21,144 nt of DNA from a virus, in IMG/VR virus record IMGVR_UViG_3300025326_000233, positions 1 to 21,144 of that record, one strand, 5' to 3'. The notes under the pieces were generated by a model. The model was not told the DNA's origin and did not search any database. It saw only the letters and a list, made by a program, of their open reading frames with translations. Made by a program: the position numbers and the translations under genes. Shown here piece after piece: positions 3,852 through 9,980 of this stretch (position 1 is its first letter; every line of letters begins with the position of its first letter).

Positions 3852-5553
3852 CGCCGTCACGGCCTACGCGCGCGCGGCCATCGCCGGCGAGGTCGTCGTC
3901 GGGCGCCTCGTCCGCCTCGCGTGCGAGCGCCACCTGCGCGATCTCCGCGAGGGGGCGCGCCGCGGCCTCTGCTTCGACCTCGCGCGTGCCGTGGACGCGA
4001 TCGAGTTCTACCGCTGTTTGCGCCACAGCAAAGGCCAGTGGGCGGGGCAGCCGATCGTCCTCACGCCGTGGGAGGCCTTCGTGATCGGCTCGATCTTCGG
4101 CTGGGTGCGCGCGGATGGACTGCGACGGTTCCGCACGGCGTACACCGAGGTGGGGAAGAAGGCGGGGAAAAGCACGCTCGCGGCCGGCGTTGGACTCCTG
4201 CTCGCGTTCTTCGACGCCGAAGCGGGCGCCGAAGTGTATGCGGCGGCGACGAAGAAAGAACAGGCCCGGATTGTGTGGGACGAGGCGCGTCGGATGGTCG
4301 TCAAGTCGCCGGGACTGCGCCAGCGGATCCAGGTGCGCGCCGCGAATCTTCACAGCCTCGAGACCGCCTCGAAGTTCGAGCCGCTCGGGCGGGACTCCGA
4401 GGGCCTCGATGGCATCAACCCGCACGGCAAGATCGTCGATGAGCTCCACCGCCACAAGAACCGCGAGATCTGGGACGTGCTCGAGGCCTCGAGCGGCGCG
4501 CGGCGGCAGGCGCTGACCTTCGTGATCACCACGGCCGGCTCGGATCCGCTCTCGATCTGCTGGGAGCAGCACGACTACGTCGTCAAAGTGCTCGAGGGGG
4601 TGCTCACGGACGACACGACCTTCGGCTATATCGCCGCGCTCGACGTCTGCGTCGTCTGCCGCGCGAAGGGCCGGACGGCCCCGGATGATACCTGCACGGC
4701 CTGCGACCGATGGGACGACGAGGCGGTGTGGCCCAAGGCGAATCCCAGCATGCCGATCACGCCGAAGCTCGACGACATGCAGAAGCTCGCCCGGGAAGCG
4801 CGCGAGAAGCCGGCCGCGCTCAACGCCTTCAAGCGCCTGCGGCTCAACGTCTGGACCGAGAGCATCACGCGCTGGCTCCCGGCCGACGCCTGGCATGCCT
4901 GTGCGGCGCCGCTCGCCCCGCTCCGCGGTCGGCGGGGCATCCTCGGTCTCGACCTCTCGTCGACGACGGACCTCACGGCCCTCGTCGCTGTGTTTCCGGA
5001 CGAGGCCGGGGACGTCGACGTACTCGCGCGCTTCTGGATGCCCGCCGACAACGTCGCCGAGCGCGTGAAGCGTGATCGCGCGCCCTACGACGTCTGGGCC
5101 CGCGAGGGCGTGCTGACGCTCATCGAGGGCAACGTCATCGACTACGACGTGATCTTCGAGGCGATCGTGGGCCTGCCCGAGCGCGAAGGCGTGGAGATCG
5201 TCGAGCTCGGCTTCGATCCCTGGAACGCGACCGGGCTCGTGACGCGGCTCCAGGGCGCCGGTATCGCCTGCGTCCCGATCCGCCAGGGGTTTGGCTCGCT
5301 CTCGGCCCCGAGCAAGGAGCTCGAAACGCTCGTCGCAGGCCGCCGGCTCCGCCACGGCGGCAATCCGCTGCTCGGACTCTGCGCGGCGAATGTCGTCGCC
5401 GAACTCGACGCCGCGGGAAATATCAAGCCGTCGAAAGCGAAGAGCACGGGGCGGATCGATGGCATTGTCGCGCTGGTCACGGCGCTCGCGCGGGTGATCG
5501 TCCAGCCCGACACGACGAGCGTCTACGAGACGCGGGGGCTCCTCGTCCTATGA
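3838..5553 (+). CDS. terL: terminase large subunit (ATPase/nuclease)
   Basis: 571 residues from GTG 3838, inside the end of terS; an in-frame extension back to 3658 would overlap terS far more. ATPase: adenine-binding region LTPWEAFVIGSIFGW, Walker A GKKAGKST (residues 106-113, Lys111), Walker B IVDELH (Asp201, Glu202), coupling segment LTFVITTAGSD. Nuclease: GLDLSSTTDLTAL (first metal-binding Asp), ELGFDPWNAT, and GRIDGIVALVTAL (last Asp). This is the Terminase_1 type. An extra CVVC...CTAC segment (Cys271, 274, 286, 289) sits between the ATPase and nuclease domains. The enzyme pumps DNA into the prohead through the portal and cuts it. The TGA overlaps the next ATG. Confidence 0.95.
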   Translation: MARDDAVTAYARAAIAGEVVVGRLVRLACERHLRDLREGARRGLCFDLARAVDAIEFYRCLRHSKGQWAGQPIVLTPWEAFVIGSIFGWVRADGLRRFRTAYTEVGKKAGKSTLAAGVGLLLAFFDAEAGAEVYAAATKKEQARIVWDEARRMVVKSPGLRQRIQVRAANLHSLETASKFEPLGRDSEGLDGINPHGKIVDELHRHKNREIWDVLEASSGARRQALTFVITTAGSDPLSICWEQHDYVVKVLEGVLTDDTTFGYIAALDVCVVCRAKGRTAPDDTCTACDRWDDEAVWPKANPSMPITPKLDDMQKLAREAREKPAALNAFKRLRLNVWTESITRWLPADAWHACAAPLAPLRGRRGILGLDLSSTTDLTALVAVFPDEAGDVDVLARFWMPADNVAERVKRDRAPYDVWAREGVLTLIEGNVIDYDVIFEAIVGLPEREGVEIVELGFDPWNATGLVTRLQGAGIACVPIRQGFGSLSAPSKELETLVAGRRLRHGGNPLLGLCAANVVAELDAAGNIKPSKAKSTGRIDGIVALVTALARVIVQPDTTSVYETRGLLVL

Positions 5554-7501: not shown

Positions 7502-8443
7502 ATGCGCTACGAGCGAATCCTGACCGAAGTGCTCGACACCCCCTGGGCGATCACGCGCGACTTCCTCGCGTTGATCGCCGAGGTCCTCAGCCGCCGCGTC
7601 GCCGGGCGCCCGTTCGCCGACGAGGAGATCGCGCAGCGCATCCGCGCCGGCCAGGAGCGCGCGGCCGCGCGGGGGAGCGGCGCGCGCATCGGTGCCGTCG
7701 CCGTCATGCCCATCCTCGGCGCGATGCTGCCGCGCGCGGAGGCGATGGAGACGAGTGGCGCGGTCAGCACGCAGCAACTCGTGGCCGCGTTCGATGCGCT
7801 CGTGGCCGATCCCTCAGTCTCGGCGATCGTGCTGGACTTCGACTCACCTGGCGGCAGCGCCGGCGGGATCGAGGAGTTCGCCCAGCGCGTCCAGGATGCG
7901 GGCGCCACGAAACCGGTCGTGGCGATCGCGAATCCCATGATGGCGAGCGCGGCCTACTGGGTCGGCTCCGCCGCGACGGAGCTGATCGCGTCGCCCTCCG
8001 CGCTCGTCGGCAGCATCGGCGTCTACAGCGCGCACGAGGACATCTCCGCGTTCCTCGAGAAGGAAGGCGTCAGGGTCACGCTCGTCGCGGCGGGCCCGAA
8101 GAAGACGCTCACGAGCCCGTTCGAGCCGCTCTCCGCGGAAGGCCGCGCGGAAATCCAGAAGCATGTCGACGAGTTCTACGCGATGTTCGTGAGGACGGTG
8201 GCCCGCGGCCGCGGCGTGAGCCAGACGACGGTCCGAGAGGAGTTCGGCCAGGGCGGCGTGGTCGGGGCCGCGGAGGCCGTCGATCGGAAGATGGCCGACC
8301 GGGTCGGCACGCTCAACGACGCGATCGCCCTGGCGGCGAAGCGGGCCGGCGTCAAGCTCCAGGTTGAGGCGATGGGGTCACCCTTGGCGGTCAACGATGA
8401 CCCGGCGAAGTTCCGCCTGGCGCTGGCCGAGCGGGGCCTCTGA
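7502..8443 (+). CDS. prohead protease, S49 (SppA/lambda C-like) family
   Basis: 313 residues. The ClpP/crotonase-fold core is clear: GAVAVMPILGAML opens the domain, IVLDFDSPGGSAGG is the oxyanion-loop glycine motif, and MMASAAYWVGSAA carries the nucleophile Ser149. SALVGSIGVYSAHEDIS and AAGPKKTLTSPFEPLS follow; in S49 proteases the latter region carries the general-base Lys, here probably Lys201 (Lys200 adjacent). This order matches phage head-maturation peptidases related to lambda C. The enzyme is expected to degrade scaffold and trim portal or capsid N-termini in the prohead. The C-terminal tail (residues about 285-313) is short, and I see no separate scaffold (Nu3-like) start within it. 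Confidence 0.9.
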   Translation: MRYERILTEVLDTPWAITRDFLALIAEVLSRRVAGRPFADEEIAQRIRAGQERAAARGSGARIGAVAVMPILGAMLPRAEAMETSGAVSTQQLVAAFDALVADPSVSAIVLDFDSPGGSAGGIEEFAQRVQDAGATKPVVAIANPMMASAAYWVGSAATELIASPSALVGSIGVYSAHEDISAFLEKEGVRVTLVAAGPKKTLTSPFEPLSAEGRAEIQKHVDEFYAMFVRTVARGRGVSQTTVREEFGQGGVVGAAEAVDRKMADRVGTLNDAIALAAKRAGVKLQVEAMGSPLAVNDDPAKFRLALAERGL

Positions 8444-8453
8444 AATTCTGTGC

Positions 8454-8483
8454 TTGACAACCCGGCACTGTCGGGCGTACACA
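8454..8483 (+). promoter_or_regulatory. possible promoter upstream of capsid gene
   Basis: A perfect TTGACA lies at 8454-8459. The best -10 is TACACA at 8478-8483, 18 bases downstream, which is weak. Between them is an almost perfect dyad, CCCGGCACTGTCGGG (8461-8475), 7 base pairs around one central base with one G-T mismatch, placed like an operator. Transcription from here would give a leader of about 200 bases before the capsid start. Promoters just upstream of the major capsid gene exist in other phages; this one is only a consensus match. Confidence 0.35.
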
Positions 8484-8606
8484 TGGCAGCGATGACGTAG
8501 CAGGTGGCCCGCACCCGAGACTCCGTGGCCAGAGTGCCGGCGGTGAGGGGACGAGGCGACGCAGCGAGAGGCGCTAGTCAGACGACTCGGCGTGAGCTGC
8601 TTGGGA

Positions 8607-8688
8607 CATCACGGACGAGATCCGTGGTGACCGGGCGCCACGCCGTTCCTGTTTCTGCTGCCCGGTCACCTCCACAAGCCGATGGAGG
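8607..8688 (+). promoter_or_regulatory. three serial hairpins in the capsid leader, the last covering the ribosome binding site
   Basis: Hairpin A: CATCACGGA (8607-8615) with TCCGTGGTG (8621-8629), 9 pairs including one wobble, 5-base loop. Hairpin B: GGTGACCGGGC (8626-8636) with GCCCGGTCACC (8660-8670), 11 perfect pairs, 23-base loop. Hairpin C: CCTCCA (8669-8674) with TGGAGG (8683-8688), 6 pairs, 8-base loop; its right arm is the ribosome binding site of the capsid gene. A and B share 8626-8629 and B and C share 8669-8670, so the full forms compete. This arrangement could act as an attenuator or a translational switch. No known riboswitch class was recognised. Confidence 0.45.
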
Positions 8689-8696
8689 GTACGGGC

Positions 8697-9980
8697 ATGC
8701 CTGTCGCAGTCAGCGGCCGAATGAAGGTTCTCCAGGAGAGGCAGAAGACACTCGCGGCCGAGGGCCGCAAGCTCGCCGAGATCGCCGCCGACCAGCGCAC
8801 CGACGAGCAGAAGGCCCGCCTCGCCGCCATCACCGGCGACGGGGGCGACCTGGACCGCGTCGTCGGGGAGATCGAGGCCGAGAAGAAGCTCATCGCGGCG
8901 GAACGCGCCGAGATCCTCGACGTCACGGACCTGGCCGCGGCCAAGCCCTGGGCCTCGTTCGGCGAGCAGCTCATGGCCATCGCCCACGCCGGCATGCCGG
9001 GCGGGCGGATCGACCCGCGACTGTATGCCGGCCCCTCCGGCGCCTCGACGCAGAGCGGCGCGGACGGAGGCTTTCTCATCGCGAAGGATCGCTCCCTGGC
9101 CCTGCTCGAGGGCGGCATCGCCGAGGCGGTCCTGGCACCCCGATGCTTCCGCATCCCGATCGGCGAGAACAGCGATGGGGTCGAGGCCCCGATGATCGAC
9201 GAGACCAGCCGGGCCAACGGCTCGCGGTGGGGCGGCGTGCGCATCTACCGCAAGGCCGAGGCCGACGCCGTCACGGCCACCAAGCCGAAGTTCGGTCTGT
9301 TCGACCTCCGGCTCGAGGATCTGATGGGCCTGGCCTACGCGACCGACCGGCTTCTGCAGGACGCGGTGGCCCTCGAGCGGATCTTCACGCAGGCGTTCAC
9401 CGAGGAATTCGCCTTCAAGATCGACGACGAGATCGTGCGCGGCTCCGGTGTCGGCGAGTGCCTCGGGTTGCTCAACGCCGGCGCGACCGTCAGCGTGCCC
9501 AAGGAGACGAATCAGGCGGCGGCGACGGTCGTCACCTCCAACCTCTCGAAGATGTGGGCCCGCATGCCCGCGCGCTTCAAGCGGGGCGCCGCGTGGTTCA
9601 TGAACGTCGACGTCGAGCCCCAGCTCGATGAGCTGGCGACGCCGGTCGGCACGGGGGGAATCCCCTGCCCCTTCGTCCGGTGGAGCGGCGACGGGACCTC
9701 GCTCACGATCAAGGGGCGGCCCGTCCTCCCGATCGAGCAGTGCGAGTCGCTCGGGACGGTCGGCGACCTCATCCTGGCGGACCTCGGCCAGTACGTCCTG
9801 ATCGACAAAGGCGGTCTCCAGTCCGACGTCTCGATCCACGTCCGGTTCATCTACAACGAGCGGACCTTCCGCTGGGTCAGCAGGATCAACGGCCGGCCGA
9901 AGTGGAACAGCGCGCTGACACCGTACAAGGGCACGGGCAACACGCAGTCGCCGTTCATCACGCTCGCGACGCGGGCGTAA
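8697..9980 (+). CDS. major capsid protein, HK97 fold
   Basis: 427 residues. ATG 8697 was chosen over ATG 8682 because GGAGGG lies 7 bases upstream of it. Residues about 8-75 are a charged, coiled-coil-like delta/scaffold domain (VLQERQKTLAAEGRKLAEI...), and the shell domain begins near residue 85. HK97-capsid features are GADGGFLIAKD (121-131), RCFRIPIGENSDGVEAPMID, the E-loop-like SRWGGVRIYRKAEADAVTATK, TDRLLQDAVALERIFTQAF, IDDEIVRGSGVGECLGLLN, WFMNVDVEPQLDEL, GRPVLPIEQCESLGTVGD and ILADLGQYVLIDKGG. The upstream S49 protease probably removes the N-terminal domain during maturation; the cut site is not evident. It assembles the icosahedral head. Confidence 0.95.
   Translation: MPVAVSGRMKVLQERQKTLAAEGRKLAEIAADQRTDEQKARLAAITGDGGDLDRVVGEIEAEKKLIAAERAEILDVTDLAAAKPWASFGEQLMAIAHAGMPGGRIDPRLYAGPSGASTQSGADGGFLIAKDRSLALLEGGIAEAVLAPRCFRIPIGENSDGVEAPMIDETSRANGSRWGGVRIYRKAEADAVTATKPKFGLFDLRLEDLMGLAYATDRLLQDAVALERIFTQAFTEEFAFKIDDEIVRGSGVGECLGLLNAGATVSVPKETNQAAATVVTSNLSKMWARMPARFKRGAAWFMNVDVEPQLDELATPVGTGGIPCPFVRWSGDGTSLTIKGRPVLPIEQCESLGTVGDLILADLGQYVLIDKGGLQSDVSIHVRFIYNERTFRWVSRINGRPKWNSALTPYKGTGNTQSPFITLATRA

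Follow-up and report, generated by a model that had tools for sequence, protein, structure and literature searches.

A putative late promoter, leader and terminator ahead of the capsid gene in uncultured tailed phages

The capsid leader and its features

The window considered here is a stretch of 21,144 nt (IMG/VR virus record IMGVR_UViG_3300025326_000233, positions 1 to 21,144), a 21-kb tailed-phage contig in which terminase, portal (PF04860), S49 head protease and HK97-type capsid genes stand in the customary order, and the subject is the 253-nt noncoding gap that separates the last two. Capsid protein is made late and is required in the largest amount. The reading preferred here, held with moderate confidence, is that the gap is a late promoter-leader-terminator attenuator module of the capsid operon, working like lambda pR'-tR'. 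An earlier inspection of the letters alone (the ‘sequence-only reading’) had put its emphasis on three serial hairpins, A, B and C; the chief control point is likely to be a transcription terminator, hairpin T, which contains A and was overlooked there. The features are as follows.

7502..8443, + strand: upstream gene, S49-type head maturation protease (Pfam PF01343, E 2.5e-36; phrog_53 head maturation protease)
8454..8459, + strand: -35-like TTGACA of the proposed late promoter, 11-16 nt past the protease stop codon and kept in the nearest relative, L003
8478..8483, + strand: -10-like TACACA at a spacer of 18, a weak match; promoter score in the window 10.0
8490..8587, + strand: 5' domain of the leader RNA, with a putative start at ~8490; noncoding, with no sequence motif common to most relatives
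8588..8645, + strand: hairpin T, terminator-like, with A as its tip; 24 pairs, -38.8 kcal/mol
8607..8629, + strand: hairpin A (8607-8615 with 8621-8629), 9 pairs including one G-U
8626..8670, + strand: hairpin B (8626-8636 with 8660-8670), 11 perfect pairs; an alternative to T/A, with the U tract in its loop
8646..8656, + strand: U-rich tract UUCCUGUUUCU, directly 3' of T; degenerate by comparison with UUUUUCUUUUG in relatives
8657..8700, + strand: hairpin C and its extension (8669-8674 with 8683-8688; 8660-8664 with 8692-8696), predicted by folding to cover the ribosome site
8684..8688, + strand: GGAGG, from its sequence the ribosome binding site of the capsid gene, 8 nt before the ATG at 8697
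8697..9980, + strand: HK97-type major capsid protein gene (Pfam PF05065, E 9.1e-34; phrog_10 major head protein)

A coding role for the gap was considered and rejected: GC content by codon phase is flat over ~8500-8650, both flanking genes having a strong third-position bias, and a long GTG frame ends elsewhere in L003.

Hairpin T, and hairpins A, B and C

None of 2000 shuffles folded to an energy as low as that of T (z -5.9). The 120-nt segment at 8580/8581, with z of -4.7 and -5.5 in two computations, ranks third lowest of 1052 such segments on the + strand, and as both lower ones overlap mutually at 2581-2720, the region is one of the two most structured spots on that strand. A second strongly structured noncoding stretch of the window, 2430-2760 (z -5.3, with many inverted repeats), lies between a DnaB-like helicase gene and an HNH gene, upstream of the terminase genes; it has no tRNA or Rfam match and might be a packaging site or terminators.

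Comparison with relatives bears on which of the helices are conserved. The leader of L003 is 93% identical (93.4% with gaps counted), the identity over the 4.7 kb that run to the capsid start being 98.5%, and a further relative, L039, has 91 nt in common with the window leader at 80%. All 24 pairs of T are kept in the three (100% of cells paired), hairpin A being invariant, and from CG/CG in the window to GC/GC in L039 the two outermost pairs of T have changed on both sides. When the partner strand is slid by 1-3 columns, pairing falls from 100% to 31-52% in these leaders; column shuffling gave 53/500, a weak test with three sequences. Over 13 alignable leader pairs, T has 19 compensatory and 40 broken pairs, where the slid control gives 7.8 and 155. 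For B, 97% of cells are paired in the three leaders, with one G-U change, one mismatch and no double change, and its 6 compensatory changes over the 13 leader pairs are no better than the 6.5 of the slid control. Nor do compensatory changes in C outnumber those of slid controls in those pairs, and the core of C is broken in L003 (CCTCC to CCCCC). At the level of these alignments the evidence favors T as the conserved helix, is undecided on B and weakens the case for C.

L003 is also of note for what follows its capsid ATG. Directly after it, at 4755-5001 and in frame, are ~246 nt beyond the window sequence, which add to the capsid protein a fused segment that is hydrophobic and membrane-like; the leader ahead of this insert is nearly identical to that of the window.

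Much of what the sequence-only reading described is nevertheless there. A and B share 8626-8629 and B and C share 8669-8670, B is indeed an 11-pair perfect helix, and C does pair the GGAGG of the capsid gene with CCTCC, its core being CCTCCA/TGGAGG over 8684-8688, and in an added register, 8660-8664 with 8692-8696, the bases immediately 5' of the start codon are paired as well. Each folds better than its own shuffles when folded singly (z -3.0, -3.9 and -2.7 for A, B and C, with the caveat that the hairpins had been picked by eye), and in the shuffled-control folding proposed with that reading 8444-8720 has an energy lower than shuffles (z -2.4). The covariation analysis proposed alongside has compensatory changes in the outer pairs of T and, in the three near leaders, none in B. 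The claim of a covered ribosome site holds in the window, where the site has an unpaired probability of 0.008. Its supposed release by a preceding structure is not supported by folding: freeing the 5' arm of B leaves the site closed in the equilibrium ensemble, and with the 5' arm of T blocked in silico the site in the window stands at 0.01 before and after, the mean change overall being -0.05. In partition-function folding T and C coexist. Neither compensatory changes in B or C beyond those of slid controls nor a change in ribosome-site access, on which a three-hairpin translational switch would depend, was found. What survives of the earlier proposal is a structured regulatory leader that is noncoding, contains T and recurs as a layout in relatives; what does not is the emphasis on A, B and C as the element.

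Capsid leaders across the wider family

Searches of IMG/VR and GTDB genomes for major capsid protein (MCP) and protease yielded 244 loci in which a capsid gene and the gene upstream of it are both present. The lengths of the gaps between the two are bimodal, many being -22 to 50 nt and many 100-300 nt, and the leader set comprised 101 distinct capsid leaders of at least 60 nt. These are not independent samples, a few being near-identical pairs, and the P values below are therefore indicative only.

When a hairpin is counted as a terminator if it reaches at most -15 kcal/mol and a U run follows, a terminator-like T is present in 50 of the 101 capsid leaders, by comparison with 13% in shuffles and 57/408 (14%) of other gaps of the same loci. 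The terminator usually lies 25-95 nt ahead of the capsid gene, and the tracts in relatives are of the type CGC-UUUUUCUUUUG, most of them 30-80 nt from the capsid start. When IMG/VR was scanned for GCTTTTTCTTTTGT, none of the matches whose loci were read preceded a capsid gene of the family, so that the U tract is not specific by itself. A covariance model, R1, made from the window, L003 and L039 and searched in 695 kb of loci, matched L013 (E 1.2e-4) and L057 (E 8.6e-4), and also L388, L396, L318 and L004 at E 0.02-0.25. The matches in L013, L057, L388, L318 and L004 end at, or within ~10 nt of, capsid start codons and that in L396 covers the capsid start; other weak matches are not at capsid starts. 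One weak match to the T model (G019 C1:30434-30511, on the contig of L402; E 0.004) is on the minus strand and far from the capsid gene.

A promoter score of at least 10.5 is reached upstream of T in 22 of the 50 leaders (1.6 expected), e.g. TTGACA-17-TATCAT in L004, L013 and L285, and in most the -35 stands 94-139 nt ahead of T. The combination of T with a strong TTGACA/TATAAT promoter at the right spacing recurs at the capsid gene, in 20/101 leaders, and is rare elsewhere, being present in 3/408 other gaps. Among module loci whose upstream gene ends in TGA, TTGAC overlaps that stop codon in 11 of 24 versus 27/744 other open reading frames (P 1.5e-9). A script that looked, in the window and ten larger module-carrying contigs, for a gene preceded by exact TTGACA, a fair -10 and then a terminator had most of its hits at the capsid gene. 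Since the median identity of the MCPs of module loci is 35%, the promoter-terminator layout outlives sequence. A TNGACR box, picked from words found enriched in the same data, lies 3-20 nt past the -10 in 12 of the 26 leaders that have good promoters (1.5 expected), and it might mark a promoter-proximal pause. The spacer between the -35 and -10 of the window contains an inverted repeat, CCCGGCACTGTCGGG.

On average, module-bearing capsid genes have a slightly better covered ribosome site than other genes do (mean unpaired probability 0.34 vs 0.44, P 0.004). Complementarity of the B type, between the stretch after the U tract and the 3' strand of T, is above that of shuffles (P<=0.05) in 14-15 of 41 leaders versus 2 of 35 other gaps with terminators, and that of the C type, to the ribosome-site region, in 16/41 versus 1/35. 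By this measure B and C recur beyond chance, yet neither covaries at homologous positions. Since T and C coexist, blocking T does not open the site and the extra coverage is modest, coverage is regarded as an additional lock of lesser strength, with B left unexplained. A different arrangement is seen just 5' of the capsid start in L273 and L275 (Bradyrhizobium prophages), where the inner CUCCUUC of the terminator hairpin is complementary to the ribosome site GAAGGAG.

The nearest cultured relatives differ, and BLAST of the leader against cultured phages gave no match. Streptomyces phage Dagobah has a 4-nt gap and no leader; the leader of Bradyrhizobium phage ppBdUSDA122-1, 101 nt long, is of different shape. 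In the latter and in Rhizobiales prophages a shorter capsid leader has CCCACG..CGUGGG crossing or competing with GCCGGGA..UCCCGGC (L236, L237, L238, L326 and L316, before the capsid start, and L457 at 2138-2200), an arrangement that looks like a pseudoknot or another A/B pair.

Proposed control, alternatives and parallels

In the mechanism proposed, for which promoter activity, termination, antitermination and timing are all predicted from sequence, a promoter of sigma70 type, located where the protease gene ends, would start a leader RNA of ~150-165 nt, and the long GC-rich hairpin T with its U-rich tract would halt most transcripts ahead of the capsid gene, the default being off. A phage or host antiterminator acting on RNA polymerase would then permit read-through of T and so expression of the capsid and downstream genes, while ribosome-site pairing probably damps translation of leak-through RNA. 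The layout recurs at the capsid gene of dozens of uncultured phages that are distantly related, and so probably makes capsid expression hinge on RNA polymerase being licensed past the terminator.

Several observations count against an attenuator of this kind. T is missing from about half of the long capsid leaders and from every short one. In the window, a simple consensus scan reports no promoter, the -10 (TACACA) is poor and the U tract, with 6 U in 11, is imperfect, promoter and tract both being weaker than in many relatives; the succession of GC-rich hairpin and U run expected of an intrinsic terminator is clear in relatives, and in the window it is clear for the hairpin. Matches to the antiterminator families PF06530 and PF03589 were not found in 24 module-carrying records, most of them incomplete, and a search with PF06323 was also without match, its control being likewise silent.

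The size of the unit, its promoter and its terminator would equally suit a small-RNA gene, the product being a free-standing, trans-acting RNA of ~150 nt and the capsid gene a mere neighbor transcribed from elsewhere or by leaky read-through. This is unlikely: the position directly before the capsid gene is kept while the sequence is not, most 5' domains are without the common sequence motif that a trans-acting RNA would in part need, and the recurring complementarity to the ribosome-site region points to action in cis. Quite improbable, too, is a three-hairpin translational switch with T/A set against B, and B against C, such that forming B frees the ribosome site. The covered site and the excess of B and C complementarity over shuffles are what such a switch would lead one to expect, but the blocking of T opens the site neither in the window nor overall, and the comparative record of both helices, with no compensatory change in B, a broken C in L003 and neither above slid controls, argues otherwise.

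A similarly low probability attaches to the leader acting on itself, its 5' domain deciding by antitermination (as with put RNAs) or by ligand sensing (as in a riboswitch) whether T forms. The ~90 nt of RNA between promoter and T in nearly all members would offer room for this. However, a motif search was weak and no strong shared motif or fold emerged among the 5' domains, pairing of the 5' domain with the 5' arm of T exceeds shuffles in only 3/26 leaders, and Rfam gave nothing credible at gathering or relaxed thresholds; no conserved RNA domain that could serve as sensor or antiterminator was found ahead of the terminator.

A broader version of the attenuator proposal is tentative, though far from idle: that a widespread undescribed module, a dedicated late promoter plus terminator inside the head operon, sets capsid output across an HK97-type phage lineage, licensed by a new class of antiterminator and with a second lock on translation. 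If true, many uncultured tailed phages time their capsid apart from the packaging genes of the same operon, and an antiterminator outside all current families is predicted in their genomes. The promoter-terminator signature would be usable to annotate late promoters in metagenomic phages.

The sequence-only reading knew of no described element of its form, and neither the papers searched in full text nor Rfam have since supplied one; the nearest parallels are partial. In the Bacillus trp leader a terminator hairpin is followed, in the read-through RNA, by ribosome-site pairing, and the capsid leader shares both a terminator and a covered ribosome site, but regulator binding repeats, a sensor domain and thermodynamic coupling of the two elements were not found in it. 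The put RNA of phage HK022 has two defined stem-loops of conserved sequence. It resembles the present case as a structured leader RNA 3' of a promoter that could pass polymerase over terminators without a phage protein, and differs in that no comparable conserved 5' domain was found in capsid leaders. Another parallel is the Caulobacter gene transfer agent, a phage-like head cluster whose expression requires antitermination: it is controlled by GafY/GafZ, with an antiterminator needed to pass terminators and a putative binding element between the -10 and -35 (PMC11150451). The terminator there is three 150-bp GC-rich repeats after the first cluster gene (PMC11150451), whereas here it is a hairpin in the capsid leader. 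In lambdoid late control part of the DNA element for Q is located between the -10 and -35 (PMC6266700); loading of Q takes place close to the promoter, at a sigma-dependent pause (PMC7171158). The present module differs in its position within the head operon, immediately 5' of the capsid gene, and in that two of the three known Q families, the PF06530 and PF03589 mentioned above, were not found in module-carrying contigs. The likeness to pR'-tR' is in the succession of sigma70-type promoter, short untranslated leader, intrinsic terminator and then late structural genes, which the leader family displays and which in the window itself has a weak -10 and U tract. It is this lambdoid layout, taken together with antitermination in the Caulobacter gene transfer agent, that leads to the proposal of default termination at T, relieved late by read-through.
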